A stretch of DNA of 64,000 nt from NCBI GenBank assembly GCA_017848965.1, contig JAFIHA010000005.1, positions 16,997-80,996 on the forward strand, read 5' to 3'. The position numbers and the translations under genes were made by a program. Below, piece by piece: positions 4,964 to 48,582 of the stretch. Every line of letters begins with the position of its first letter. Positions within the stretch are counted from its first letter, which is position 1. The stretch comes from Dechloromonas aromatica (nom. nud.) (lineage in GTDB: Bacteria; Pseudomonadota; Gammaproteobacteria; Burkholderiales; Rhodocyclaceae). The notes below the pieces were generated by a model that was not told where the DNA came from, did no database searches, and saw nothing but the letters and a program-made list of their open reading frames with translations.

Positions 4964-5452
4964 ATGAAAACCGTTCTCGTGTTATGCACCGGCAACTCCG
5001 CCCGCTCCATCCTCGGCGAGGCCTTGTTCAACCACCTTGGCGGCGGTCGCATCCGCGCCTTTTCGGCCGGCAGCCAGCCGACCGGCACGGTCAATCCGGT
5101 CGCGCTCGAAACCCTGGCAAGCCATGGCGTGCCGCAGCCCGAAGCGCGCAGCAAATCGTGGGATGAATTCGCCGCCCCCGGCGCGCCGGCCATCGACTAC
5201 ATTTTCACCGTCTGCGCCTCGGCGGCCGGCGAAACCTGCCCGATCTGGCCCGGCCATCCGACCACCGCCCACTGGGGCATCGCCGACCCGGCCCACGTCG
5301 AACCGCTGGCGGCCCGCCAGGCTGCCTTCGAGCGCGCTTACCAAGTGCTGCGCCAGCGCGTCGAGGCTTTTCTCCAACTGCCGCTGGAAACCATGAGCGC
5401 CGCCGAAATCAAGATGGCGGCACAGCGGATTCACCAGGAGTGCGAACAATGA
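4964..5452 (+). CDS. arsC: Arsenate reductase ArsC (second copy)
   Basis: Cytosolic reductase converting arsenate to arsenite for export. The 162-residue protein (MKTVLVLCTGNSARS) is clearly a paralogue of the C-terminal half of the preceding fusion: same P-loop, same AGSQPTGTVNP and RSKSWDEFA words, and the same cysteine pair (VCASAAGETCPIWPG). The start ATG follows GAGGAACGACGG. Its stop overlaps the acr3 start as ATGA, indicating translational coupling. The family relies on thioredoxin as electron donor; which of the two copies is the main enzyme cannot be told. Confidence 0.93.
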   Translation: MKTVLVLCTGNSARSILGEALFNHLGGGRIRAFSAGSQPTGTVNPVALETLASHGVPQPEARSKSWDEFAAPGAPAIDYIFTVCASAAGETCPIWPGHPTTAHWGIADPAHVEPLAARQAAFERAYQVLRQRVEAFLQLPLETMSAAEIKMAAQRIHQECEQ

Positions 5453-6519
5453 GCGCGCAATGCGGCGTTGCCGCGAAACAGGCGGCCGGTGCCCCGATGG
5501 GCTTTTTCGAGCGTTGGCTCAGTCTCTGGGTGGTGCTCTGCATCGTCGCCGGCGTCCTGCTCGGTCAGTGGTTCCCGGGTGCCTTCCAGGCCCTGGGCGG
5601 AATGGAAGTCGCCCAGGTCAACCTGCCGGTCGGCTTGCTGATCTGGGTGATGATCGTGCCGATGCTGATGAAGATCGATTTTGCGACGATCCATGAAGTG
5701 AAGGACCAGAAGGCCGGCATCGGCATCACGCTGTTCGTCAACTGGGCGATCAAGCCGTTCACGATGGCGGCGCTCGGCTGGTTGTTCATCCGTTACGTCT
5801 TCGCCCCTTACCTGCCGGCCGAGCAGCTCGACAGCTACATCGCCGGCCTGATCCTGCTCGGCGCGGCGCCGTGCACGGCGATGGTCTTCGTCTGGAGCAA
5901 CCTGTGCCGGGGCAACGCCAACTTCACGATCTCGCAGGTGGCACTGAACGATCTGGTCATGGTCTTCGCGTTTGCTCCCATCGTCGCGCTGCTCCTTGGC
6001 GTCTCCGCCATCCCGGTACCGTGGGACACGCTGCTGCTGTCGGTAGTGATGTACATCGTCATTCCGCTGGCCATCGCCCAGGGGCTGCGCAAGCATTTCC
6101 TGCGCGGCGGCGAAGCGGCCTTCAAGCGGGCCATCGAACGGATCGGTCCGTTCACCATCGTGGCGCTGCTGGCAACGCTGGTTCTGCTCTTCGCTTTCCA
6201 GGGCGAGGCCATCGTCCGCCAGCCGCTGATCATCGCCATGCTGGCCGTGCCGATCCTGCTCCAAGGCTTGTTGATCGCTGCCATCGGCTACTGGCTGTGC
6301 CACAAGTTTCGCGTCCAGCACGACGTTGCCGGTCCGGCGACGATGATCGGTGCCTCGAACTTCTTCGAGCTGGCGGTCGCCGTCGCCATCGTCCTCTACG
6401 GTTTCGATTCCGGCGCCGCGCTGGCCACCGTGGTTGGCGTGCTGATCGAGGTACCGGTCATGCTGTGGCTGGTGAAGATGGTCAATTCGACCAAGACCTG
6501 GTACGAAAAATCCCTTTGA
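5449..6519 (+). CDS. acr3: Arsenite efflux permease Acr3
   Basis: Inner-membrane arsenite exporter of the ACR3 (BART superfamily) type, not ArsB. The 356-residue protein has about ten hydrophobic helices. The conserved helix GLILLGAAPCTAMVFVWSNL carries the cysteine needed for As(III) translocation, and the later helix GASNFFELAVAVAI is typical. The ATG at 5449 overlaps the arsC stop and has a CAGGAG ribosome site; an in-frame ATG three codons upstream is less likely. Together with ArsA and ArsD downstream it could work as an ATP-driven pump. Confidence 0.95.
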   Translation: MSAQCGVAAKQAAGAPMGFFERWLSLWVVLCIVAGVLLGQWFPGAFQALGGMEVAQVNLPVGLLIWVMIVPMLMKIDFATIHEVKDQKAGIGITLFVNWAIKPFTMAALGWLFIRYVFAPYLPAEQLDSYIAGLILLGAAPCTAMVFVWSNLCRGNANFTISQVALNDLVMVFAFAPIVALLLGVSAIPVPWDTLLLSVVMYIVIPLAIAQGLRKHFLRGGEAAFKRAIERIGPFTIVALLATLVLLFAFQGEAIVRQPLIIAMLAVPILLQGLLIAAIGYWLCHKFRVQHDVAGPATMIGASNFFELAVAVAIVLYGFDSGAALATVVGVLIEVPVMLWLVKMVNSTKTWYEKSL

Positions 6520-6534
6520 AGCGAGGAGAAGAAG

Positions 6535-6897
6535 ATGCAGAAACTTGAAGTTTACGATCCCGCCATGTGCTGTCCGACCGGCGTCTGCGGCGTCGATGTC
6601 GATCCCGTGCTGGTCCAGTTCGCCGCCGACCTCGCCTGGGTCGGCGAGCAGGGCGTTGCCGTCCAGCGCTACAACCTCGGCCAGGAGCCGCAGGCCTTCG
6701 CTGCCAATCCGGCGGTGGTCAAGGAAATGGAAGCCGGCATCGACCGCCTGCCGATCGTCGCCATCGACGGCAAGATCGTCAGCAGCGGCCTTTATCCGAC
6801 GCGCGCCCAACTGGCGCAGAAACTCGGCCTGACCCTGGGCAGCAGCGAAGAGGCGCCGAAAAAGTCCTGCTGTTCGCCGAAATCCGGCTGCTGCTGA
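6535..6897 (+). CDS. arsD: Arsenite metallochaperone ArsD
   Basis: Chaperone that hands As(III) to the ArsA ATPase and weakly represses ars operons. At 120 residues it has the classical layout: Cys12-Cys13-Cys18 (AMCCPTGVC) for arsenite transfer and C-terminal Cys112-Cys113 and Cys119-Cys120 pairs, the same positions known for plasmid R773 ArsD. The thioredoxin-like core contains DRLPIVAIDGKIVSSG. GAGGAGAAG precedes the ATG. Located between acr3 and arsA, as expected for the ArsD-ArsA pair. Confidence 0.96.
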   Translation: MQKLEVYDPAMCCPTGVCGVDVDPVLVQFAADLAWVGEQGVAVQRYNLGQEPQAFAANPAVVKEMEAGIDRLPIVAIDGKIVSSGLYPTRAQLAQKLGLTLGSSEEAPKKSCCSPKSGCC

Positions 6898-6906
6898 GGA
6901 AAACCC

Positions 6907-8652
6907 ATGCTCGATCTCGACCAGGCGCCGCGCTACCTCTTCTTCACCGGCAAGGGCGGCGTCGGCAAGACCTCGCTCTCCTGCGCCAGCGGCCTGGCCC
7001 TGGCCGAAACCGGCAAACGCGTGCTGATCGTCAGCACCGACCCCGCCTCCAACCTCGATGAAGTCCTGGAAACGCCACTCGCCGGCACGCCGACGCCGGT
7101 ACGCGGCGTGCCCGGCCTGAGCGCCCTCAACATCGACCCGGAAGCGGCGGCGGCCGCCTACCGCGAGCGGATGGTCGCGCCCTACCGCGGCATCCTGCCG
7201 GCGGCGGCGATCCAGAGCATGGAAGAACAATTCTCCGGCGCCTGCACGGTCGAGATTGCCGCTTTCGACGAGTTCGCCAAACTGCTCGGCGAGCCGGCGT
7301 CGACCGCCGACTTCGACCACGTGATCTTCGACACGGCGCCGACCGGTCACACACTGCGCCTGCTGACGCTGCCTTCGGCCTGGAGTGGTTACATCGACAG
7401 CAGCCACGGCGGCGCCTCCTGTCTCGGGCCGCTGGCCGGGCTAGAGAAACAGAGAGCGCTCTATGCGGCCACCGTCGAGCGTCTCTCCGATCCGGCGCGG
7501 ACGCGCGTCGTCCTGGTTGCCCGAGCCGACGCCGCCGCCCTGCGCGAAGCCGAACGGACGCGCCACGAACTGGCCGAACTGGGCGTTGCCAACCTGCAAC
7601 TGGCGATCAACGGCCTGTTTTATGCCGCCGGCAACGACCCCGTCGCCGTCGCCATGGAACAGCGCAGCACTGCCGCACTGCTCGCCATGCCGGCCGGCCT
7701 GGGTGCCCTGCCCCGGCGGGTCGTCCCTTTCCTGCCGCGCGGCACGGTCGGCCTGGCCGCCCTGCGCGCCATCGTCGCCCCCGCCCCGACCGCCGCGCCC
7801 GAGGTCGCACCGGCCACGAGCACGAACCTGCCGGGCGGTCTCGCTGCCTTGATCGACGAACTGGCCAGCGCCGGACGCGGTGTCGTGATGACGATGGGCA
7901 AGGGCGGCGTCGGCAAGACGACGGTCGCCGCCGCCGTTGCCGTGGCGCTGGCCCGCCGCGGCCACCGGGTGCATCTGACCACCACCGACCCGGCAGCGCA
8001 CGTCGCCGCAGCGGTCGATGGTGAAATTGCCGGCCTCTCGCTCAGCCGCATCGACCCGGCCGCCGAAGTCGCGACCTACACCGAAGAAGTACTGGGCAAG
8101 GCGCGCGGCGCGCTCGACGCCAGTGCGCTGGCGCTGCTGGAAGAGGATTTGCGCTCGCCCTGCACCGAGGAGATCGCCGTCTTCCGCGCCTTTGCCCGTG
8201 AGGTCGATCGCGGCAACGACGGTTTCGTCGTCCTCGACACCGCGCCGACCGGCCACACCATCCTGCTGCTCGACGCCGCCGAGGCCTACCACCGCGAGGT
8301 GCTGCGCACGCGCGGCGAAATGCCGGCCGCCGTGACCCAATTGCTGCCGCGCCTGCGCGACCCGGGCTTCACCCACGTGCTGATCGTCACCCTGCCGGAA
8401 GCGACGCCGGTACACGAAGCCGAGCGCCTGCAAGGCGACCTCGCCCGGGCCGGCATCCAGCCCTGGGCCTGGGTCATCGAGCAGAGCCTGCTGGCCAGTG
8501 GCAGCCGCGACCCGCTGCTCGCCCTGCGCGGCGCTTACGAAATCCCTTACATCCGGCGCGTCACCGACAGCTTGTCGCCGCGTTGCGCGCTGATTCCCTG
8601 GCTGGCCGAAGCCCCGGTCGGCAGCGCCGGCCTGCGCCAGTTGGATGCCTGA
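6907..8652 (+). CDS. arsA: Arsenite-stimulated ATPase ArsA
   Basis: Cytosolic ATPase that energises the Acr3 permease. The 581-residue protein has two homologous halves, each with a P-loop (FTGKGGVGKTS near residue 14; MGKGGVGKTT near 330) and the DTAPTGHT signal sequence (near 142 and again in the second half). Cys113, Cys172 and Cys419 match the metalloid-binding cysteines of the family. It starts nine bases after arsD and its 3' end overlaps the next gene by 8 bases. Confidence 0.96.
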   Translation: MLDLDQAPRYLFFTGKGGVGKTSLSCASGLALAETGKRVLIVSTDPASNLDEVLETPLAGTPTPVRGVPGLSALNIDPEAAAAAYRERMVAPYRGILPAAAIQSMEEQFSGACTVEIAAFDEFAKLLGEPASTADFDHVIFDTAPTGHTLRLLTLPSAWSGYIDSSHGGASCLGPLAGLEKQRALYAATVERLSDPARTRVVLVARADAAALREAERTRHELAELGVANLQLAINGLFYAAGNDPVAVAMEQRSTAALLAMPAGLGALPRRVVPFLPRGTVGLAALRAIVAPAPTAAPEVAPATSTNLPGGLAALIDELASAGRGVVMTMGKGGVGKTTVAAAVAVALARRGHRVHLTTTDPAAHVAAAVDGEIAGLSLSRIDPAAEVATYTEEVLGKARGALDASALALLEEDLRSPCTEEIAVFRAFAREVDRGNDGFVVLDTAPTGHTILLLDAAEAYHREVLRTRGEMPAAVTQLLPRLRDPGFTHVLIVTLPEATPVHEAERLQGDLARAGIQPWAWVIEQSLLASGSRDPLLALRGAYEIPYIRRVTDSLSPRCALIPWLAEAPVGSAGLRQLDA

Positions 8653-36829: not shown

Positions 36830-37030
36830 ATGGCCGGCAGCTGGGGTTGCCCGCACGAAGTCAATGACCGCTGCACGAAGATCAACAATCTGCCGTGCAA
36901 CCCGGGCATGAAGGGCTGCGAGCTGGCCGGCCGCTACCGCTTTGTCGACGAGAGCAAGAACGAGCGCTACTGGGAAAAGAAGGCGCGCGAGCAGGCGGCC
37001 GCCACCAAGCCGCCCCGCCCAAACGACTGA
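36830..37030 (+). CDS. Small cysteine-rich protein
   Basis: A 66-residue protein with four cysteines at 7, 15, 23 and 30 (WGCPHE, DRCTK, LPCNPGMKGC), then a charged C-terminus (ENERYWEKKAREQ-like). The spacing suggests a zinc or Fe-S knuckle. It starts one base after glnS, and its TGA overlaps the methyltransferase ATG (TGATG). I recognise no function; the tight spacing and conserved-looking cysteines argue that it is a real gene. Confidence 0.75.
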   Translation: MAGSWGCPHEVNDRCTKINNLPCNPGMKGCELAGRYRFVDESKNERYWEKKAREQAAATKPPRPND

Positions 37031-38199
37031 TGCCGCTCGACGTCGCCCGCCTCGGCCAGGTGTTCACGCCTTCCAGGGTGGTGGATTTCATGCTCGACCT
37101 GTGTACCAACACAGGCAGCGTGCTTGAGCCGTCGGCCGGCGACGGCGCCTTCTTCAACGAACTGCGCCGTCGCGGCAGCGACGTCACCGGCGTCGAACTC
37201 GACCCCGGGGTCGCCCCGGCCGGCGCCCGGGTGATAGATTTCTTCGACCTGCCGGAAAGCGAACGTTTCGCCACCATCGTCGGCAATCCACCCTATGTGC
37301 GCTACCAGGACATCGCCGCAGCGACCCGCAAAAAGCTGAAATCGCCGCTGTTCGACAAGCGCAGCAACCTGTTCCTGTTCTTCATCGAGAAGTGCATCCG
37401 CCACCTCGAACCGGGCGGCGAACTGGTCTTCATCGTGCCGCGCGAGTTCATCAAGCTGACCTCGGCCAGGAAGCTCAACGCCTGGCTGTTCGGCCAAGGC
37501 AGCATCACGCATTTCTTCGAGACCGGCGACGTCCGCGTCTTCGCCGGCGCCAACCCCAACTGCTGCATTTTCCGCTTCGAGAAGGGGCGTTTCGACCGCC
37601 GCATGGCCGACGGCCGAGTCTTCACTGAAGTCGACGGGCAGCTGATGTTCCTGCGCGACGACCACGGCGTGCGCCTCTCCGACATCTTCGAGGTGCGCGT
37701 CGGCGGCGTTTCCGGCGCCGACCCGGTATTCCGCCACGCCGAGGGCAACCTCGATTTCGTCTGCTCGAAGACCGCCGACACCGGCGAAACGCGGCGCATG
37801 ATCTACGGCATCGAACACCCCGCCCTGCTGCCGCACAAGCAACGCCTGCTCGCCCGCCGCGTGCGCAAGTTCGACGAGGGCAACTGGTGGCACTGGGGTC
37901 GCCATTTTCCGATCAATGACGACCCGCGCATCTACGTCAATGGCCGCACGCGCAAGAGCGAACCCTTCTTCCTGCACGACTGCCCGAACTTCGACGGTTC
38001 GGTGCTGGCGCTGTTCCCGAAGAACCGCCGGATGCGCCGGCGCGACCTGATCGAATGCACGATGATGCTCAACCACGAAGTCGACTGGCAGCAGCTCGGC
38101 TTCGTCTGCGACGGCCGTTTCCTGTTCACCCAGCGCAGCCTGCAAACCTGCCTGCTGCCCGCCAAGTTTTCCCGTTATCTGCCGAAGGAAGAAACATGA
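37030..38199 (+). CDS. Class I N6-adenine DNA methyltransferase, orphan
   Basis: A 389-residue SAM-dependent methyltransferase of the TaqI/Eco57I type. Motif X/I region: [14 protein letters not shown] and [14 protein letters not shown] (residues about 30-45). The catalytic motif IV is [10 protein letters not shown] near residue 84, typical of adenine-N6 enzymes. The C-terminal half (about 200-389) would be the target-recognition domain. No restriction endonuclease is adjacent. It is coupled to the small Cys protein upstream and overlaps pyrF by 4 bases, an unusually housekeeping-like setting. Confidence 0.85.
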
Positions 38200-40433: not shown

Positions 40434-41741
40434 CTACATGCCGAGGTAGGCGGCGCGCACCTGTTCGTTGGCGATCAGCGCCTGGCCGGTGTCGGTGAGC
40501 GTCACCGCGCCGGTTTCCAGCACGTAGCCGCGGTCGGCGATGGCCAGCGCAGCAAAGGCGTTCTGCTCGACGAGCAGGATGGTCATGCCCTGCGCTTTCA
40601 GCGACTTGACGACGTTGAACACTTCCTCGACCAGCAAGGGCGCCAGGCCCATCGACGGTTCGTCGAGCAGCAGCATCTTCGGTCGCCCCATCAGCGCGCG
40701 GCCGATCGCCAGCATCTGCTGCTGGCCGCCGGACAGGGTGCCGGCCGGCAGGTGGCGCTTTTCCTTGAGGATGGGGAACATCGCGAAGACCTTGTCGAGA
40801 TCGCCCTCGACCTGCGCCTTCGGCTGCGTGAAGGCCCCCAGACGCAGGTTGTCCTCGATCGACAGCGGGCCGAACACCTGCCGCCCTTCCGGGCTCTGGC
40901 AGATGCCGCGGCGTACGCGCTGGTCGGCGCGCAAGTTGGTGATGTCGTCGCCGTTGAAGAAGATGCGTCCGGCGCTGATCGGCTGGACCCCCGACAGAGC
41001 GCGCAGGAAAGTGGTCTTGCCGGCGCCGTTGGCGCCGACCAGGGCGACCAGCTCGCCTTGGCGCACTTCGAGGTCGATCCCCTTGAGCGCCTTGATCCGC
41101 CCGTAGCAGCTCTCCAGGCCGCTGACGCGCAACATGGTGTCGCCAGCCACGGCATGCGCCGCCGGCTCCAGGTCGCCGCCGCTGTGCGCGCCGAGGCCGA
41201 CCGATTCCGGCGCCAGGCTGGCGATGCGGTGGAAGAGCTGGCGATATTCGAGGCGCGCCTGTTCGCCGAACACCGGATCGGCGTTATCGAGGAAGGCGCG
41301 GTCGATGACCGCCCAGTCCTCCGGCAGGAGCACTTCGCGGGCGAGCGGCATGGCGTCCTTTTCCTCGGTCCGGATGTGCGACTTCAGGCTCTCGGCAAAG
41401 ATGCGCAAGTTGCCGGCGAATTCGCCCGGCGCGCTGGCCGGAGCCGCCAGCTGGCGGCGCAGCGAACGGAGGATTTCCGGCCCGTTGCGGTGTTCGATCT
41501 GCAGGCGGTCGAGCACCGCCGCCGCTTCCGGGCTGCGCCGGCGCAGCGCCGGGAACAGGTATTCGTCCTCCTTGGCGTGGTGGCAGGCGTCCATGAAGTG
41601 TTCGATGTAGTCGAACACCGAGTGGAAGAAGGCCGGATCGACCGGCTCGCCGGCTTCCATTTCGCCGGCGACGAGGTCGAGGGTGACGGCGATGCGCCAC
41701 AGGTCCTGGTGTTCTTCGGTGATGATGCGCAATGCTTCCAT
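40434..41741 (-). CDS. Hemerythrin-like domain fused to LivF-type ABC ATPase
   Basis: A 435-residue frame joins two domains. Residues 1-160 are a hemerythrin/HHE four-helix bundle with a full set of iron ligands by pattern: His11, His48, His54/His55 with Glu58 (HHAKEDEYLFP), His84, and His122 with Glu126 (HIRTEEKD). Residues 203-435 are a LivF ATPase: Walker A GANGAGKTT (236-244), signature LSGGQQQ (336-342), Walker B LLLDEP (357-362). The linker (160-202) is Ala/Gly-rich. I chose ATG 41741 because GAGGGAAA precedes it; the ATG 18 bases upstream lacks a site. No ribosome site precedes the internal ATG before LivF (41135), so the fusion is likely genuine. Last gene of livHMG-F. Confidence 0.9.
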   Translation of the reverse strand: MEALRIITEEHQDLWRIAVTLDLVAGEMEAGEPVDPAFFHSVFDYIEHFMDACHHAKEDEYLFPALRRRSPEAAAVLDRLQIEHRNGPEILRSLRRQLAAPASAPGEFAGNLRIFAESLKSHIRTEEKDAMPLAREVLLPEDWAVIDRAFLDNADPVFGEQARLEYRQLFHRIASLAPESVGLGAHSGGDLEPAAHAVAGDTMLRVSGLESCYGRIKALKGIDLEVRQGELVALVGANGAGKTTFLRALSGVQPISAGRIFFNGDDITNLRADQRVRRGICQSPEGRQVFGPLSIEDNLRLGAFTQPKAQVEGDLDKVFAMFPILKEKRHLPAGTLSGGQQQMLAIGRALMGRPKMLLLDEPSMGLAPLLVEEVFNVVKSLKAQGMTILLVEQNAFAALAIADRGYVLETGAVTLTDTGQALIANEQVRAAYLGM

Positions 41742-41751
41742 GGCGTTTCCC

Positions 41752-42513
41752 TCAGGCATGCGTGCCGAGATAGGCGGCGATCACGTCCGGGTTGGCGCGC
41801 ACTTCGGCGCCGCTGCCTTCGGCCAGTTTCTTGCCGTAGTCGAGGACGAGGATGCGGTCGGACAGGTTCATGACCATCTTCATGTCGTGTTCGACGAGGA
41901 CGACGGTAACGCCGGAATCGGCGATCTTGCGCACCAGCGTATCGACCTCGATGGTCTCCTTGGGATTGAGGCCGGCGGCCGGCTCGTCGAGGAAGATCGG
42001 GCGCGGCTTCATGGCCAGCGCGCGGGCAATCTCCAGACGCTTGAGGGCGCCGTAGGACATCGCGTCGGCACGCGCCTCGACATACTGGCCGAGGCCGACG
42101 AATTCCATCAATTGCGCCGCCTCGGCGCGCAGTTCGCGGTCGCGCCGGCGCAGCGAGGGCAGGCGCAGCGCCGCCTTGAACGGGTTACGATCGAGCCGCA
42201 GATGGGCGCCGACCATGACGTTCTCGATGGCGCTCATGTTCATGCAGATCTGCAGGTTCTGGAAGGTGCGGGCGACGCCGCGCCGCGCCAGCTCGCTCGG
42301 CGCGCGGCCGTGGATGGCCTCGCCGTCGAGACGGATTTCCCCGCTGGTCGGTTTGTACACGCCGGTGATCAGGTTGAACAGCGTCGTCTTGCCGGCGCCG
42401 TTCGGGCCGATCACCGAGTAGACGATGCCGGCGTCGATGTCGAAGCTGACGTTCTGCACCGCCTTGACGCCGCCGAAATGGATCGACAGGTTGCGCACTT
42501 GCAGCAGGCTCAT
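41752..42513 (-). CDS. livG: Branched-chain/aromatic-acid-type ABC transporter ATPase LivG
   Basis: First of two ATPases of a HAAT-family importer, 253 residues. Walker A GPNGAGKTT near residue 33, LGAHLRLDR-type insertion typical of LivG, signature YGALKRLEIARAL and Walker B IFLDEPAAGLNP, switch VEHDM. It starts one base after livM. Neighbours (paaG, paaI, paaX) suggest that the system imports an aromatic acid such as phenylacetate rather than leucine; this is inference from context. Confidence 0.94.
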   Translation of the reverse strand: MSLLQVRNLSIHFGGVKAVQNVSFDIDAGIVYSVIGPNGAGKTTLFNLITGVYKPTSGEIRLDGEAIHGRAPSELARRGVARTFQNLQICMNMSAIENVMVGAHLRLDRNPFKAALRLPSLRRRDRELRAEAAQLMEFVGLGQYVEARADAMSYGALKRLEIARALAMKPRPIFLDEPAAGLNPKETIEVDTLVRKIADSGVTVVLVEHDMKMVMNLSDRILVLDYGKKLAEGSGAEVRANPDVIAAYLGTHA

Positions 42514-42514
42514 C

Positions 42515-43447
42515 TCATTCCCCCTTGCCGAAGCGCGCCGCCAGCGTCGGCACCAGGCCGCGCGGCAGGAAGATCATGCACAGCATCAGGATGGCGCCGA
42601 AGGCCACCGTCTCCCAGCCCTCGAAGGTGGCCAGCGCCTGCGGCAACGCGGTGAGCAGGACGGCGCCGACGACCGAACCGTAGACCGAGGCCATGCCGCC
42701 GATGACGACCATGGTCACCAGTTCGATCGAGTGGAAGAAATCGGCGTAGGCCGGGCTGATGAAACCGATGTAATGCGCCGAGATGCTGCCCATGACGCTG
42801 GCCGAGAAGGCCGACATGACGAAGATCGCCCCCTTGTAGCGGGCGACGTCGACGCCGACCACCTGCGACGCCACCTCGGAGCCGTGCAGCGCGCGCAGGG
42901 CGCGGCCGAAGGGCGAGTCGATCAGGTTGAGCGAGGCCCAGACGGCGATCACCAGCAGCACGGCGACGACCCAGTACCATTGGCGGTCGCTACCGATTTC
43001 GTAGCCGAACAGTTCCATCGCCGGTACCACCATGCCGTCCGGACCGCCGGTCCATTGCGCCTCGTTGCGCAGCGCGATGTTGATGATGATGCCCAGGCCG
43101 AGCGTCGCCATCGCCAGGTAATGCCCCTTCAGCTTGAAGATCGGCCGCGCCAGCAGCGCCGCCAGCAGCGCCGAAGCGGCCGCCCCGGCGAGCAGGGCGA
43201 GCAGCGGATGCCAGCCGACATGGGTCGGCAGCACCGCCGAGGCGTAGGCGCCGATGCCGAGAAATCCGGCGTGGCCGAGGCTGATCTGGCCGGCAAAGCC
43301 GATCAGCAGGTTGAGACCGATGACGATGATGGCGTTGATCGCCATGCGCACCGCGAGGTCGAGGTAGAAGCTGTTGGGCAGCACGAAGGGCAGCACGGCG
43401 AGAACGACGGCGAGCAGCCCGAGGCCGAGAAATGGGGTCTTTTTCAT
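42515..43447 (-). CDS. livM: ABC transporter permease LivM
   Basis: Membrane subunit of the Liv-type importer, 310 residues with about nine hydrophobic helices. Conserved family words: NLLIGFAGQISLGHAGFLGIGAY (split here; GQISLGHAGF is diagnostic), GRALRALHGSEVAS in the cytosolic EAA-like loop, and GSVVGAVLL. Starts two bases after the livH stop, so the operon is tightly packed. Confidence 0.94.
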   Translation of the reverse strand: MKKTPFLGLGLLAVVLAVLPFVLPNSFYLDLAVRMAINAIIVIGLNLLIGFAGQISLGHAGFLGIGAYASAVLPTHVGWHPLLALLAGAAASALLAALLARPIFKLKGHYLAMATLGLGIIINIALRNEAQWTGGPDGMVVPAMELFGYEIGSDRQWYWVVAVLLVIAVWASLNLIDSPFGRALRALHGSEVASQVVGVDVARYKGAIFVMSAFSASVMGSISAHYIGFISPAYADFFHSIELVTMVVIGGMASVYGSVVGAVLLTALPQALATFEGWETVAFGAILMLCMIFLPRGLVPTLAARFGKGE

Positions 43448-43449
43448 GC

Positions 43450-44325
43450 TTACACCCGATCGGTCGATTTGCCGCCGAACAGGCCGCGCGGCATGAAGAA
43501 CAGGATGAGCAGGATGAGCACGAAGGGAATCGCGTCCTTGTACGCCGACGAAATGTAGCCGGCGCCCATCGCCTCGAGAATGCCGACCAGCAGGCCGCCG
43601 ACCACCGCACCCAGGCCGTTGCCCAGCCCGCCGACGACGGCGGCGACGAAGCCCTTGAGGCCGAGCATGATGCCGACGTCGTAGGAAGTCAGGGTGATCG
43701 GCGTGATCAGGATGCCACCGAGCGCGCCGAGCGCCGCCGACATGGCGAAGCTGAGGAAGAGCACCCAGCTCGTGTTGATGCCGACCAGTTCGGCCGCCGT
43801 CCGGTTGAACGAGGTGGCAAGCATCGCCTTGCCCTGCAGCGTACGGTTGAAGAAGTACCAGAGGCCGGCCACCACCAGCGCGGTGATGCCGAGCACCCAG
43901 AGGCTCTGCGGCAGCAGCGTGGCGCCGAGAATCTCGATCGGCGCGTCGCCGGAGAAGGCGGGCAGGCTGAAGGTATTCTTGCCCAGCCAGACCTGGACGA
44001 TGCCGCGAATGACCAGCGAGGCGCCGATGGTGATGATGATCAGCGTCACCGTCTCGGCGCCCTTGACCGGCTCAATGGCCAGTTTCTCGACCAGGACGCC
44101 GACCACCGCCGGCACCAGGACGGCGAGCAGCAGCACGACCGGCAGCGGCAGCCCCATCTGCGCGAAAAAGACGGCGAGCATGCCGCCGAGCATGATGAAC
44201 TCGCCCTGCGCGAAGTTGATGACGTTGCTGGCGTTGTAGATCAGCGTGAAGCCGAGGGCGGCCAGCGCGTAGGTGGCGCCGACGGTGACCCCGGAAAACA
44301 GGAATTGCAGGAACTGGGCGAGCAT
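43450..44325 (-). CDS. livH: ABC transporter permease LivH
   Basis: Second membrane subunit, 291 residues with about eight helices (GVTVGATYALAALGFTLIYN, NFAQGEFIMLGG, VVGGLGNGLGAVVGGLLVGI). The open frame runs upstream to 44517, but ATG 44325 (MLAQFLQFLFSGV) matches the family N-terminus and has AGGGGGA upstream. It overlaps by one base (TGATG) the stop of an 11-codon leader frame. First structural gene of the leftward transporter operon. Confidence 0.94.
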   Translation of the reverse strand: MLAQFLQFLFSGVTVGATYALAALGFTLIYNASNVINFAQGEFIMLGGMLAVFFAQMGLPLPVVLLLAVLVPAVVGVLVEKLAIEPVKGAETVTLIIITIGASLVIRGIVQVWLGKNTFSLPAFSGDAPIEILGATLLPQSLWVLGITALVVAGLWYFFNRTLQGKAMLATSFNRTAAELVGINTSWVLFLSFAMSAALGALGGILITPITLTSYDVGIMLGLKGFVAAVVGGLGNGLGAVVGGLLVGILEAMGAGYISSAYKDAIPFVLILLILFFMPRGLFGGKSTDRV

Positions 44326-44360
44326 CAGCGTCCCCCTGCCCGCAGGCCGGTCATTTTCAT
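44325..44360 (-). CDS. Eleven-codon leader frame before livH
   Basis: An ATG at 44360 stands behind a very strong ribosome site (GGAGGAGAGAACA) and opens an 11-codon frame (MKMTGLRAGGR) whose TGA shares its A with the livH ATG. Every part is read directly from the sequence. It could be a coupling leader for livH translation. It has no run of regulatory codons that would suggest classical attenuation. Confidence 0.45.
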   Translation of the reverse strand: MKMTGLRAGGR

Positions 44361-44670
44361 TGTTCTCTCCTCCAATAGCCCCACATTGTCTAGGGCGAAG
44401 ACCCAAGTTGGCAACCGGCACGGCGGCGTTTTGCATGGCCCGGCAGGCAAGCCCCGTCGCCTCGGGCGGACGGCGGAAAGCCGGGTCCGGCGCCGTCGCC
44501 CGCAAGGGCAACGGCACGATTGCGAGCGCGCGCTGTTACCACATCGGCACGCATGCATTAATCTACGACACCGCTTCCGCCGTCCCGCCGCCGGCAACAA
44601 CCCAATAAAACCGAGTGCTGCGCCAGTCCCCACGTGGGCTGCGCTTGCTGCACTACTTGAGGAGAACCGA
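44361..44670. other. Divergent promoter region of livH and paaG, no gene seen
   Basis: 310 bases between the diverging transporter and paaG genes. On the minus strand TTGCCA (44409-44414) and TAGACA (44387-44392), 16 bases apart, may drive the leader-livH operon. On the plus strand TTACCA and TAATCT, 17 bases apart, lie around 44534-44562 ahead of paaG, but both are weak. Short frames here look like chance. A PaaX operator could lie in this stretch; I could not identify one with confidence. Confidence 0.35.
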
Positions 44671-45465
44671 ATGAACTTCCAGACCATTGCCTTTTCCGCC
44701 AGCGACGGCATCGCCCGCCTGACCCTGAACCGCCCCGACAAGCTGAACAGCTTCACCGGCGAAATGCACGCCGAACTGCGCGTCGCGCTCGATCGCGTTC
44801 AGGCCGACCACAGCATCCGCGTGCTCGTCCTCAGCGGTGCCGGCCGGGCTTTCTGCGCCGGCCAGGACCTGGCCGACCCCGACATGCAGGCAATCAACGG
44901 CCAACTGCCTGACATCGGCAACGTCGTCGAGAAGAACTACAAGCCGCTGGTGCTGCGTCTGGAGAACCTGCGCGTGCCGACCCTGGCCGCGGTCAACGGC
45001 ATCGCTGCCGGCGCCGGCGCCTCGCTCGCGCTGGCCTGCGACCTGGTTGTCGCCACGCAGTCGGCCTCCTTCCTGCAGGCTTTCTCGAAGATCGGCCTGA
45101 TCCCCGATACCGGCGGCACCTGGTTCCTGCCGCAACGCGTCGGCATGGCCCGCGCCATGGGGCTTGCCCTGCTCGCCGACAAGCTGCCCGCAGCCAAGGC
45201 CGCCGACTGGGGGCTGATCTGGGAATGCGTTGCCGATGACGCCTTCGTTGCCCGCATCGACGCGCTCGCCGCCCAGCTTGCCGGCATGCCGACCAAGGCG
45301 CTGGTGCGTACCCGCCAGGCAATGCACGCTGCCCCCGGCCACACGCTGGAACAGCAGCTTTCCTATGAAGGCGGCTTCATGCGCGAACTCGGCTGGAGCC
45401 CGGACTACGCTGAAGGCGTTGCCGCTTTCATGGAAAAGCGCGCACCGAAGTTCAGCGGAAACTGA
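44671..45465 (+). CDS. paaG: Enoyl-CoA hydratase/isomerase PaaG
   Basis: 2-(1,2-epoxy-1,2-dihydrophenyl)acetyl-CoA isomerase of aerobic phenylacetate degradation, forming the oxepin-CoA. The 264-residue crotonase-fold protein has the oxyanion-hole segments SGAGRAFCAGQDL and NGIAAGAGASLALACDLVVA, and SKIGLIPDTGGTWFLPQRVG with the acidic residue typical of PaaG. TTGAGGAGAACCGA precedes the ATG. A generic crotonase is the alternative, but paaI and paaX nearby make PaaG likely. Confidence 0.9.
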   Translation: MNFQTIAFSASDGIARLTLNRPDKLNSFTGEMHAELRVALDRVQADHSIRVLVLSGAGRAFCAGQDLADPDMQAINGQLPDIGNVVEKNYKPLVLRLENLRVPTLAAVNGIAAGAGASLALACDLVVATQSASFLQAFSKIGLIPDTGGTWFLPQRVGMARAMGLALLADKLPAAKAADWGLIWECVADDAFVARIDALAAQLAGMPTKALVRTRQAMHAAPGHTLEQQLSYEGGFMRELGWSPDYAEGVAAFMEKRAPKFSGN

Positions 45466-45549: not shown

Positions 45550-46020
45550 ATGACCGAACCCCAACTTGACGCAAATGAAGCGCAAGCCCTCGCCGAAGCC
45601 ACCGCCGCCGCCATGTACGCCCGCGATGCCGCAGCCCAAGCGCTCGCCATCCGCATCGTGCGCATCCAGCCGGGCGCCGCGCTACTCACGATGACGGTCC
45701 GTCCCGACATGGTGAACGGCCACCACATCTGCCATGGCGGGATGATCTTCGCACTCGCCGACACGGCTTTCGCCTACGCCTGCAACAGCCACAACCGGAA
45801 TACCGTCGCCGCAGCCTGTCATATCGATTTCCTTGCCCCCGCCCGCCAGGGCGAAACGCTCGAAGCGGAGGCCATCGAGCGTTCGGCAGCCGGACGCACC
45901 GGCGTTTACGACATCACCGTGCGGAACGCCGCCGGCACCACCATCGCCCTCTTCCGGGGCAAGAGCTACCGCATCGCCGGCGAGGTCATCGGCGGACTGC
46001 AACAGTCCGACCGGGTCTGA
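45550..46020 (+). CDS. paaI: Hydroxyphenylacetyl-CoA thioesterase PaaI
   Basis: Hotdog-fold thioesterase, 156 residues, that releases CoA from dead-end ring-hydroxylated phenylacetyl-CoA. Family words: VNGHHICHGGMIFALADTAFA (catalytic Asp in LADTAF), CHIDFLAPARQGETLEAEA, and GRTGVYDITVRN. It lies 84 bases after paaG on the same strand and presumably shares its promoter. Confidence 0.93.
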   Translation: MTEPQLDANEAQALAEATAAAMYARDAAAQALAIRIVRIQPGAALLTMTVRPDMVNGHHICHGGMIFALADTAFAYACNSHNRNTVAAACHIDFLAPARQGETLEAEAIERSAAGRTGVYDITVRNAAGTTIALFRGKSYRIAGEVIGGLQQSDRV

Positions 46021-46253: not shown

Positions 46254-47399
46254 ATGAAGACCAGCCTGAAACGAATCGTTGCCGGAGCCGCCCTGGCTTG
46301 TGGCGCCCTCGCGGCTGTTGCCGCCGAGCCGATCAAGATCGGCTCCGTACTCTCGGTCACCGGCCCCGCCGCCTTTCTCGGCGACCCGGAACTGAAGACG
46401 CTGCAACTCTACGTCGCCGAGATCAACAAGAAGGGTGGCGTCCTCGGCCGCCCGCTCGAACTGGTGCATTACGACGACGGCAGCGATGCCGGCAAGGCCA
46501 ACGGCTTCACCAAGCGCCTGATCAATGATGACCAGGTCGACATCCTGGTTGGCGGCACGACCACCGGTTCGACCATGTCGGCCGCCCCGCTGGTCGACAA
46601 GGCCGGCATTCCCTTCGTCTCGCTGGCTGGCGCCGTGGTCATCATCGAGCCGGTCAAAAAATTCGTCTTCAAGACGCCGCACACCGACCGCATGGCGGCC
46701 GAAAAAGTCTTCGCCGACATGAAGAAGCGCGGCCTCAGCAAGGTTGCCCTGCTCTCCGAAACCTCCGGCTTTGGCGCCTCCGGCAAGAAGGAAACCGAAG
46801 CGGTGGCCGGCAAGTACGGCATCACGCTGGTCGCCAACGAAACCTACGGGCCGAAGGATACCGACATGAGCCCGCAACTGACCAAGATCAAGAACACGGC
46901 CGGCGTCCAGGCGGTCTTCGTGTTCGGCCTCGGGCAGGGCCCGGCGATCGTCACCAAGAACTACAAGCAACTCGGCATTGCCCTGCCGCTCTACCAGTCG
47001 CACGGTGTCGCCTCCGACGAATTCCTGAAGCTGGCCGGCCCGGCCGCCGAAGGCGTCCGTCTGCCGTCGCCGGCCCAGCTGATCCCGGAAAAGCTGCCCG
47101 CCAACGACGCCCAGAAGCCGGTCGTCACCGCCTACGCCAACGCCTACAAGGCGGCCTACAAGACCGACGTATCGACCTTCGGCGGCTACGCCTACGACGG
47201 CCTGATGCTGGCGGTCGACGCGATCAAGCGCGCCGGCAGCACCGACAAGGCCAAGGTGCGCGACGCGCTCGAAGCGACCAAGGGCTTCGTCGGCACCAGC
47301 GGCACCTTCAACATGTCGGCGACCGACCACATGGGGCTCGACCTCTCCGCCTTCCGCATACTGGAAGTGAAGAACGGCGACTGGACTCTGGTTCAGTAG
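46254..47399 (+). CDS. Periplasmic binding protein of Liv-type ABC transporter
   Basis: Substrate receptor for the livHMG/hemerythrin-LivF importer, 381 residues. Signal peptide MKTSLKRIVAGAALACGALA cleaved near AVAA/EPIK, followed by the Peripla_BP_6 start IKIGSVLSVTGPAAFLGDPE. Other typical blocks: INKKGGVLGRPLELVHYDDG, GGTTTGSTMSAAPLVDKAGI. AAGGAGGAGACCCACCC is a strong ribosome site. It is encoded apart from its membrane components, at the end of the paa side of the divergent module. The ligand is probably an aromatic acid, by context. Confidence 0.92.
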   Translation: MKTSLKRIVAGAALACGALAAVAAEPIKIGSVLSVTGPAAFLGDPELKTLQLYVAEINKKGGVLGRPLELVHYDDGSDAGKANGFTKRLINDDQVDILVGGTTTGSTMSAAPLVDKAGIPFVSLAGAVVIIEPVKKFVFKTPHTDRMAAEKVFADMKKRGLSKVALLSETSGFGASGKKETEAVAGKYGITLVANETYGPKDTDMSPQLTKIKNTAGVQAVFVFGLGQGPAIVTKNYKQLGIALPLYQSHGVASDEFLKLAGPAAEGVRLPSPAQLIPEKLPANDAQKPVVTAYANAYKAAYKTDVSTFGGYAYDGLMLAVDAIKRAGSTDKAKVRDALEATKGFVGTSGTFNMSATDHMGLDLSAFRILEVKNGDWTLVQ

Positions 47400-47637: not shown

Positions 47638-48582
47638 TCAGGCGAGCGGATCGTCCTGGCTGAAGCGGCGGGCCAGCGTGCCGTCCTCGACCGGCACGCT
47701 GCCGTCGGCAACGCACAGCATGGCATCGAGGTGACGCGACGAGGCGGCTTCCAGCCGCTTGTAGATTTCCTTGCACAGGAGCCGCGCCTGCTGCCCCGGC
47801 CACTGCGCCGGCAGCAGCACTTCCGGCAGTTCCGGGTCGCGCAGCAACATGCGCCGGTAATCGTGGATCAACAGCAGGCGGAGCAGGAAGGCATCCTGAT
47901 CGGCCAGATCGAGCGAAGCGTCGCGCTGCAGTTCATCGAGCACCGGCTGGTAACGATCGACGAAATGGCCGTAAGCCCCGGACAAGGCGTCGAGATTCCA
48001 GGCCCGGGCGACCAGGTCGGCGTCGCTGGCCGACGCCGCCGAACGGGCATCGGCAGCGAACAGCGGCAGCAGCGCACCGAGCGCGTCGGCCAGGCCTTCG
48101 GCGAGCAGCGCATCGAGCACGGTCGACAATTCCGCCCCGGGATGCACGAAACACTCGCCGCCGAGCATGCCGAAGCCCTGCCAGAGCAGCGCGTTGCGCA
48201 CCTGCTCGCACTCCTTCGGCGGCAGCCCGCCGCCCCCCAGGATCAGCCGCCAGCGGCGGTCCCAGAGCGGCGCCCGCGATGCGTAGATGTGACGGGCGGC
48301 TTCCGCGAAACGCCGACGGCCGGCCGCGGTCAGCGCATAATCGGCGCGCCGGCCGAGGGTTTCGGTGCGCAGCCATTCCTCCTTGACCAAGCGGAACACC
48401 GAGGTGCGGATCAGGCGCTCGTTGAGGTCGAGCGGTTCGAGCAGACGGATCAGGCTGCCCAGCCAGATCTTGCCGCCGCGCGGCAGCACGGCGTCACCGA
48501 AGGCGGTGATGATCAGCGAACCGGCCTGAACGCGACGTTTTTGCCGGAAATCGGCCAACCTTTGTTGTATTGCATTGCCCAC
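47638..48582 (-). CDS. paaX: Phenylacetic acid catabolism regulator PaaX
   Basis: GntR-like repressor that is released from DNA by phenylacetyl-CoA. The 314-residue protein has the PaaX N-terminal winged helix (SLIITAFGDAVLPRGGKIWL, LNERLIRTSVFRLVKEEWL), a YALTAAGRRRFAEA wing and the C-terminal PaaX domain (PGAELSTV, LLIHDYRRMLLRDPELPEVL). Start GTG at 48582, with AGGA ten bases before it. It faces the binding-protein gene convergently and is likely the regulator of the paa/liv module. Confidence 0.93.
   Translation of the reverse strand: MGNAIQQRLADFRQKRRVQAGSLIITAFGDAVLPRGGKIWLGSLIRLLEPLDLNERLIRTSVFRLVKEEWLRTETLGRRADYALTAAGRRRFAEAARHIYASRAPLWDRRWRLILGGGGLPPKECEQVRNALLWQGFGMLGGECFVHPGAELSTVLDALLAEGLADALGALLPLFAADARSAASASDADLVARAWNLDALSGAYGHFVDRYQPVLDELQRDASLDLADQDAFLLRLLLIHDYRRMLLRDPELPEVLLPAQWPGQQARLLCKEIYKRLEAASSRHLDAMLCVADGSVPVEDGTLARRFSQDDPLA

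Follow-up and report, generated by a model that had tools for sequence, protein, structure and literature searches.

A hemerythrin-like HHE domain fused to the LivF-type ATPase of a predicted aromatic-acid ABC importer

Here we describe a gene of Dechloromonas aromatica (nom. nud.) that joins a hemerythrin-like HHE domain to the LivF-type ATPase of an ATP-binding cassette (ABC) importer. It lies in a 64,000-nucleotide stretch of contig JAFIHA010000005.1 (hereafter the window), at positions 40434–41741 on the minus strand. A single unbroken open reading frame runs from 41741 to 40434 (435 codons plus stop; P0002) and encodes a protein of 435 residues with a computed mass of 47.6 kDa. The HHE domain and its C-terminal helices occupy residues 1–184 (41190–41741, delimited by PF01814, alignments and model), a flexible linker spans residues 179–199 (41145–41207), and the LivF-type nucleotide-binding domain covers residues 203–435 (40437–41135), all on the minus strand. 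Pfam recognizes both halves above their cut-offs, Hemerythrin (PF01814) at residues 4–134 (E 2.2e-18; 67.4 bits against a cut-off of 25.3) and ABC_tran at residues 219–363 (E 2.1e-29). The ATPase carries its Walker A motif at residue 236 and its signature motif at 336, and its nearest solved relative is 1ji0 (53% identity). The gene thus genuinely joins a hemerythrin/HHE bundle, through a flexible linker, to a complete LivF-type ATPase, as claimed in the initial annotation (which left the minus strand unnamed), and the domain search proposed there returned the two domains expected.

The architecture is conserved yet not widespread. With the HHE domain as query, 22 of 36 same-genus genomes (the window genome among them) proved to have the fusion, its frame and domain order unchanged; none of the matches from the 24 further genomes drawn was fused. 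A scan of named loci placed 48 fused loci among the best-scoring 79 of at least 517. These span beta- and gammaproteobacteria and include Azonexus, Dechloromonas, Zoogloea, Accumulibacter, Brachymonas, Castellaniella, Polaromonas, Rhodoferax, Alcaligenaceae, Plasticicumulans and Ectothiorhodospiraceae; Azospirillum lipoferum 4B carries a fusion, 49% identical, on plasmid p1. Azonexus hydrophilus and Dechloromonas hortensis, both culturable, are among the species that have it. Among 398 genomes sampled evenly across the phylum, 4 had a full-length match, the window genome again being one of them. The architecture search suggested by the initial annotation therefore turned up relatives in number. 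One of the 22 same-genus fusions, of 393 residues (G012; L087:9001–10182, also L047), is missing about 45 LivF residues after Walker A and is a broken copy or an assembly error.

At the sequence level the gene is a single translation unit. A ribosome-binding site, GAGGGA (41748–41753, minus strand), stands 6 bases 5′ of the fusion ATG and overlaps the stop codon of livG, the fusion starting 10 bases past that stop codon. An in-frame methionine, Met203, lies ahead of LivF and might serve as the start of a separate ATPase; on inspection of the sequence it has no ribosome site, and on both points the initial annotation was right. We checked translation signals in those 44 of the 48 named fused loci that have the exact Walker A string: 33 of them have a Shine–Dalgarno-like site ahead of the HHE start, and only 4 have such a site with a start codon near LivF. 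The same continuous frame is present in dozens of separate assemblies, and the frameshift that the initial annotation had named as fatal to its claim was not found. We consider it extremely improbable that the fusion is an artefact of frameshift, misassembly or internal initiation.

An AlphaFold model of the full-length protein shows two folded domains with a disordered segment between them at residues 179–199, where the predicted local distance difference test score (pLDDT) falls below 50 (mean pLDDT 82.9; predicted template modelling score (pTM) 0.57). Modelled alone, the HHE domain reaches a pLDDT of 91.4 and a pTM of 0.87, with long helices at residues 2–29, 36–69, 71–99 and 105–137. One or two predicted metal ligands sit on each of these (H11; H54 and E58; H84; H122 and E126). 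All six His/Glu ligands anticipated by the initial annotation are present in the window protein, and alignment shows that 55 of 56 fused sequences retain the full set, as does each of the 52 distinct non-fused HHE relatives. Judging from what is known of the family, the domain most likely binds metal, at a di-iron or other di-metal site.

The type of site is another matter. We take the O2-carrying hemerythrins to be marked by a fifth His, in an HxxxH motif of the third helix. The corresponding position, 88, is Pro in 48 of the 56 fused sequences, the window protein among them, and His in 1; the fifth His is absent from 55 of 56 in the alignment. The O2-carrying type was rejected on this ground, the ligand set being one of four His and two Glu in the pattern H-HxxxE-H-HxxxE, which matches that of YtfE. 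The statement in the initial annotation that the domain binds O2 is therefore unsupported. In the parts of PMC4919030 that deal with these groups, the O2 binders form a separate monophyletic hemerythrin subgroup, and O2 is said not to bind at the FBXL5 iron site. The YtfE-type pattern (PMC9268430, in part) and a profile match to YtfE (E about 5e-7) would suit a module that donates iron to, or repairs, nearby di-iron or Fe-S oxygenases. The Pfam scan matched no ScdA_N domain, and only 10 residues precede the first ligand. We regard the donor role as improbable.

The fusion lies in an importer operon. Directly upstream lies a livG-like gene for the second ATPase of the same importer (41752–42513, by profile matches), followed by genes for LivM-like (42515–43447) and LivH-like (43450–44361) permeases, both BPD_transp_2, all on the minus strand. 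The livG gene is immediately upstream of the fusion in 47 of the 48 named fused loci, and the remaining locus is cut by a contig end. Beyond the permeases come paaG (44671–45465, plus strand), encoding epoxyphenylacetyl-CoA isomerase (TIGR02280, 364.8 bits against a cut-off of 345.15), the thioesterase gene paaI (45550–46020, plus; TIGR02286, 166 against 118.9), a gene for a Peripla_BP_6 substrate-binding protein (46254–47399, plus), probably the importer's partner, and the repressor gene paaX (47638–48582, minus; TIGR02277, 274 against 264.55). These three phenylacetate genes, a class of neighbour noted in the initial annotation, each exceed an NCBIfam equivalog cut-off.

The nucleotide-binding motifs and the cluster with LivG, LivM, LivH and a Peripla_BP_6 protein are those of the HAAT (Liv) family, with the binding-protein gene about 1.9 kb off on the opposite strand. 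LivF was tried against the branched-chain amino acid equivalog NF008626, and this assignment was rejected, its score (277.3 bits) falling short of the cut-off (441); LivG, LivM and LivH are likewise below the corresponding cut-offs. Four same-genus PaaA loci were viewed, drawn from 22 genomes with PaaA/PaaC, and each encodes, on the strand of paaA and no more than about 100 bases upstream of it, a protein 82–91% identical to the binding protein; a role of the importer in phenylacetate catabolism is therefore most likely. At two gammaproteobacterial fused loci with PaaA (L126 and L131), the binding-protein gene and paaA are some kb apart. PaaN is encoded beside 23 of the 48 named fused loci (22 by clustering). 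From this gene linkage the cargo is likely to be phenylacetate or a close aromatic acid. For benzoate, uptake by predicted ABC transporters had no experimental demonstration, according to the relevant part of PMC6449761.

Free-standing HHE genes occur in comparable settings. In the HHE tree, the 56 fused domains all fall on one side of a single branch (Shimodaira–Hasegawa-like approximate likelihood ratio test (SH-aLRT) support 94), and their neighbours, with unsure support, are six free-standing alphaproteobacterial HHE genes. Four of these six lie 5.7–9.6 kb upstream of an orthologous unfused livF on the same strand, in a paa-type cluster with a paaX-like gene and, in three of the four, PaaA/PaaC-type genes. 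An HHE gene directly follows livF in 8 of the 31 non-fused named loci (chance expectation about 0.16 of 31, assuming 20 livF per 4000 genes) and in 18 of 108 distinct HHE domains of a combined, non-random set. The LivF tree separates these HHE-adjacent LivFs from the fused ones and distributes them over at least two, probably three, Liv groups. The window genome has eight hemerythrin-type genes, two of which are either joined to a livF or placed directly behind one. The second of these pairs, unfused (G000:C47; L009:8353–9720), belongs to a meta-cleavage-type cluster that also encodes an HsaA-like monooxygenase (below cut-off) and a flavin reductase. Such a distribution of free, adjacent and fused forms is the pattern that would be expected of cooperating partners that were fused later. 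The HHE part is under purifying selection, with a median pairwise ratio of non-synonymous to synonymous substitution rates (dN/dS) of 0.34 against 0.145 for LivF, both medians being taken over 684 non-independent pairs that passed a dS filter.

The initial annotation had linked the fusion to a pathway that needs O2. O2-dependent aromatic catabolism does lie near some relatives: an oxygenase-type protein is encoded at 32 of the 48 fused loci by similarity to a reference set, which was drawn largely from the same flanks and allows one locus to score for more than one type. The types are a 342-residue protein (24 loci), a flavin monooxygenase-like protein (8), a phenol hydroxylase subunit (2) and PaaA (2). 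The same set also scores at 7 of 23 non-adjacent free HHE loci and 1 of 8 livF-adjacent HHE loci, and some livF-adjacent loci carry genes for DmpE/DmpH or for 4-hydroxybenzoate or 3-hydroxybenzoate monooxygenase. Among same-genus genomes, 11 of the 22 with the fusion encode PaaA/PaaC family members, against 1 of the 14 without it (Fisher p 0.011), a test that ignores kinship and in which several of the 14 non-fused genomes are incomplete. In the window genome itself PaaA/PaaC was not found, nor was BoxB in a search without a control above the cut-off, and the O2 argument consequently rests on relatives. That genome has PaaG, PaaI and PaaX without detected PaaA/PaaC, so that PaaG has no evident source of its epoxide substrate there.

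The 342-residue protein has two ExxH motifs and a sub-threshold match to AurF, and it occurs with a 2Fe-2S/FAD/NAD reductase at 24 of the 48 named fused loci (for example L116:1278–2303 and L099:5297–6343; also L084, L085, L087, L090, L093 and others). Together the two are a candidate two-component di-iron oxygenase, and their presence beside the fusion counts in favour of iron donation. The searches made did not find the 342-residue protein in the window genome.

A different reading of the metal site is protective. The HHE domain would scavenge or store O2, H2O2 or NO beside the importer without controlling transport, and the fusion would merely place it at the membrane and couple its expression. 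Oxygen storage or scavenging and protection is the role proposed for the free-standing COG3945 HHE proteins of benzoate clusters (PMC6449761, in part), and the pertinent part of PMC8913304 describes an NO peroxidase of mycobacteria, a hemerythrin-like protein whose ligands are four His, two Glu and a Tyr. In our alignment of the present family, Tyr45 is invariant. A scavenger would, however, gain little from a 1:1 fusion to a low-copy ATPase, and the transporter is where the evidence points, since HHE is found repeatedly on LivF or behind it, although 23 of the 31 non-fused named loci are not livF-adjacent. We hold protection to be rather unlikely, though likelier than iron donation.

The reading that we place first, tentatively and with less than even confidence, is that of a di-metal sensor or regulatory module tuning the ATPase of an aromatic-acid importer of the HAAT/Liv type. 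The protein would be the two-domain ATPase subunit of an importer whose cargo is phenylacetate or a closely related aromatic acid, its N-terminal HHE bundle holding a di-iron or other di-metal site and serving as sensor or regulator. O2, H2O2, NO or the supply of iron might change the redox or ligand state of the bundle, and the change might be transmitted through the flexible linker, or by docking of the HHE domain on the LivF/LivG pair. ATP hydrolysis or assembly would be altered, and import would track the cell's capacity for ring attack. Both the signal and the gating are what we infer. Many of the hosts are facultative denitrifiers, so NO is as plausible a signal as O2. Aromatic acids can burden cells that are unable to oxygenate them; if the proposal is true, a redox-reading domain on an importer ATPase would match uptake to oxygen directly at the protein level and would suggest a role for the noted but unexplained HHE proteins of benzoate clusters. 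The natural variants in related bacteria (fused, split, HHE absent, ligands lost) make the idea testable. A bolder version is more doubtful still: that a fused di-iron redox, O2 or NO sensor gates the importer, which would be the first such case among ABC importers, within a wider HHE–Liv partnership that ties aromatic-acid uptake to the ability to oxygenate the ring. In that partnership HHE would occur as a separate gene behind livF in several Liv groups, as a separate gene within paa clusters of Alphaproteobacteria, and fused to LivF in beta- and gammaproteobacteria.

Several observations weigh against a sensor. Recognized oxygenase types are encoded at only 11 of the 48 fused loci, and the figure of 32 requires the unproven 342-residue candidate. 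The window genome, 99.2% complete, yielded no PaaA/PaaC; PaaN was not found there by the searches made, nor was BoxB, in a search without a control above the cut-off. Among the non-fused named HHE loci, 23 of 31 are not livF-adjacent, and for 5 of 12 close LivF orthologues from the order sample the 1.5-kb flank fetched contains no HHE. Universal stress proteins, too, carry a fused HHE domain of this subfamily (L074:6174–7193, the only one on which Pfam was run here; also L073, L078, L081 and L082). The disordered linker of the model offers no fixed coupling surface, and the HHE part evolves faster than LivF. In L168 (G143) the operon is present and the HHE domain cleanly absent, with a LivF 84% identical; G219 (L167), of the same genus, has the fusion, which suggests that fusion can be undone. 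A Polaromonas fusion (L124:9001–10317) has lost its metal ligands (HLEHRE) and retains an intact-looking LivF, making it a probable natural negative for metal binding. The domain is therefore dispensable in some settings. Clean absence in one lineage, ligand loss in another and the faster evolution would all fit a structural or assembly domain that stabilizes the LivF/LivG pair or docks a partner, metal or not. The retention of six ligands in nearly every fused sequence and every non-fused relative is hard to explain without metal, and we judge this role unlikely. A sensor is thus favoured over a scavenger, then a structural domain, with the iron donor last of these.

Elsewhere in the window, an Eco57I-type N6-adenine DNA methyltransferase-like gene (36895–38199) stands between glnS- and pyrF-like genes, and the arsenite efflux genes acr3, arsD and arsA lie at 5440–8652.

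Several known systems resemble parts of this protein. Free-standing COG3945 HHE genes, of unclear role, lie in benzoate clusters with a benzoate ABC transporter in Rhodocyclales and Rhodoferax (PMC6449761, in part, which cites Gescher et al. 2002 for this system). They are alike in domain type and in setting, namely aromatic-acid Liv-type importers and aromatic-catabolism regulons. There the HHE is a separate gene, whereas here it is fused to LivF, in paa clusters of beta- and gammaproteobacteria; the portion of PMC6449761 consulted mentions neither fusion nor gating, and the word 'fused' is absent from the paper's text. YtfE/RIC shares the ligand pattern but differs in its ScdA_N domain (which some RICs lack); its bundle is helix-swapped and its function that of an iron donor (PMC9268430, same portion). 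The hemerythrin domain of FBXL5, an iron sensor, belongs to a eukaryotic ubiquitin ligase and is about 16% identical. NMB1532 (2p0n) and PF0695 (3cax) are HHE-like proteins of unknown function whose entry titles name no ABC domain. Where members of the O2-binding hemerythrin subgroup are fused to other domains, the products are mostly signalling proteins (PMC4919030, in part), a parallel by analogy only, given that the present HHE is of another type. In MetN, ModC and OpuA, transport is regulated by an additional domain fused to the ABC ATPase, according to the sections concerned of the review PMC10710835, in whose text 'hemerythrin', 'redox' and 'LivF' do not appear. Like the fusion, MetN (C2), ModC and OpuA (CBS) carry an extra cytoplasmic domain on the nucleotide-binding subunit; theirs sense substrate, ionic strength or c-di-AMP and are C-terminal in MetN and ModC, whereas the HHE–LivF fusion places a predicted di-metal bundle at the N-terminus of a Liv-type ATPase. 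In the open-licence literature searched, that review included, we found no description or test of an HHE–LivF fusion, in agreement with the initial annotation, which knew of no characterized transporter of this kind. Free-standing HHE genes beside benzoate transporters are known, and HHE fused to LivF appears to be new; in its build, the fusion resembles those ABC importers to which a regulatory domain has been added.
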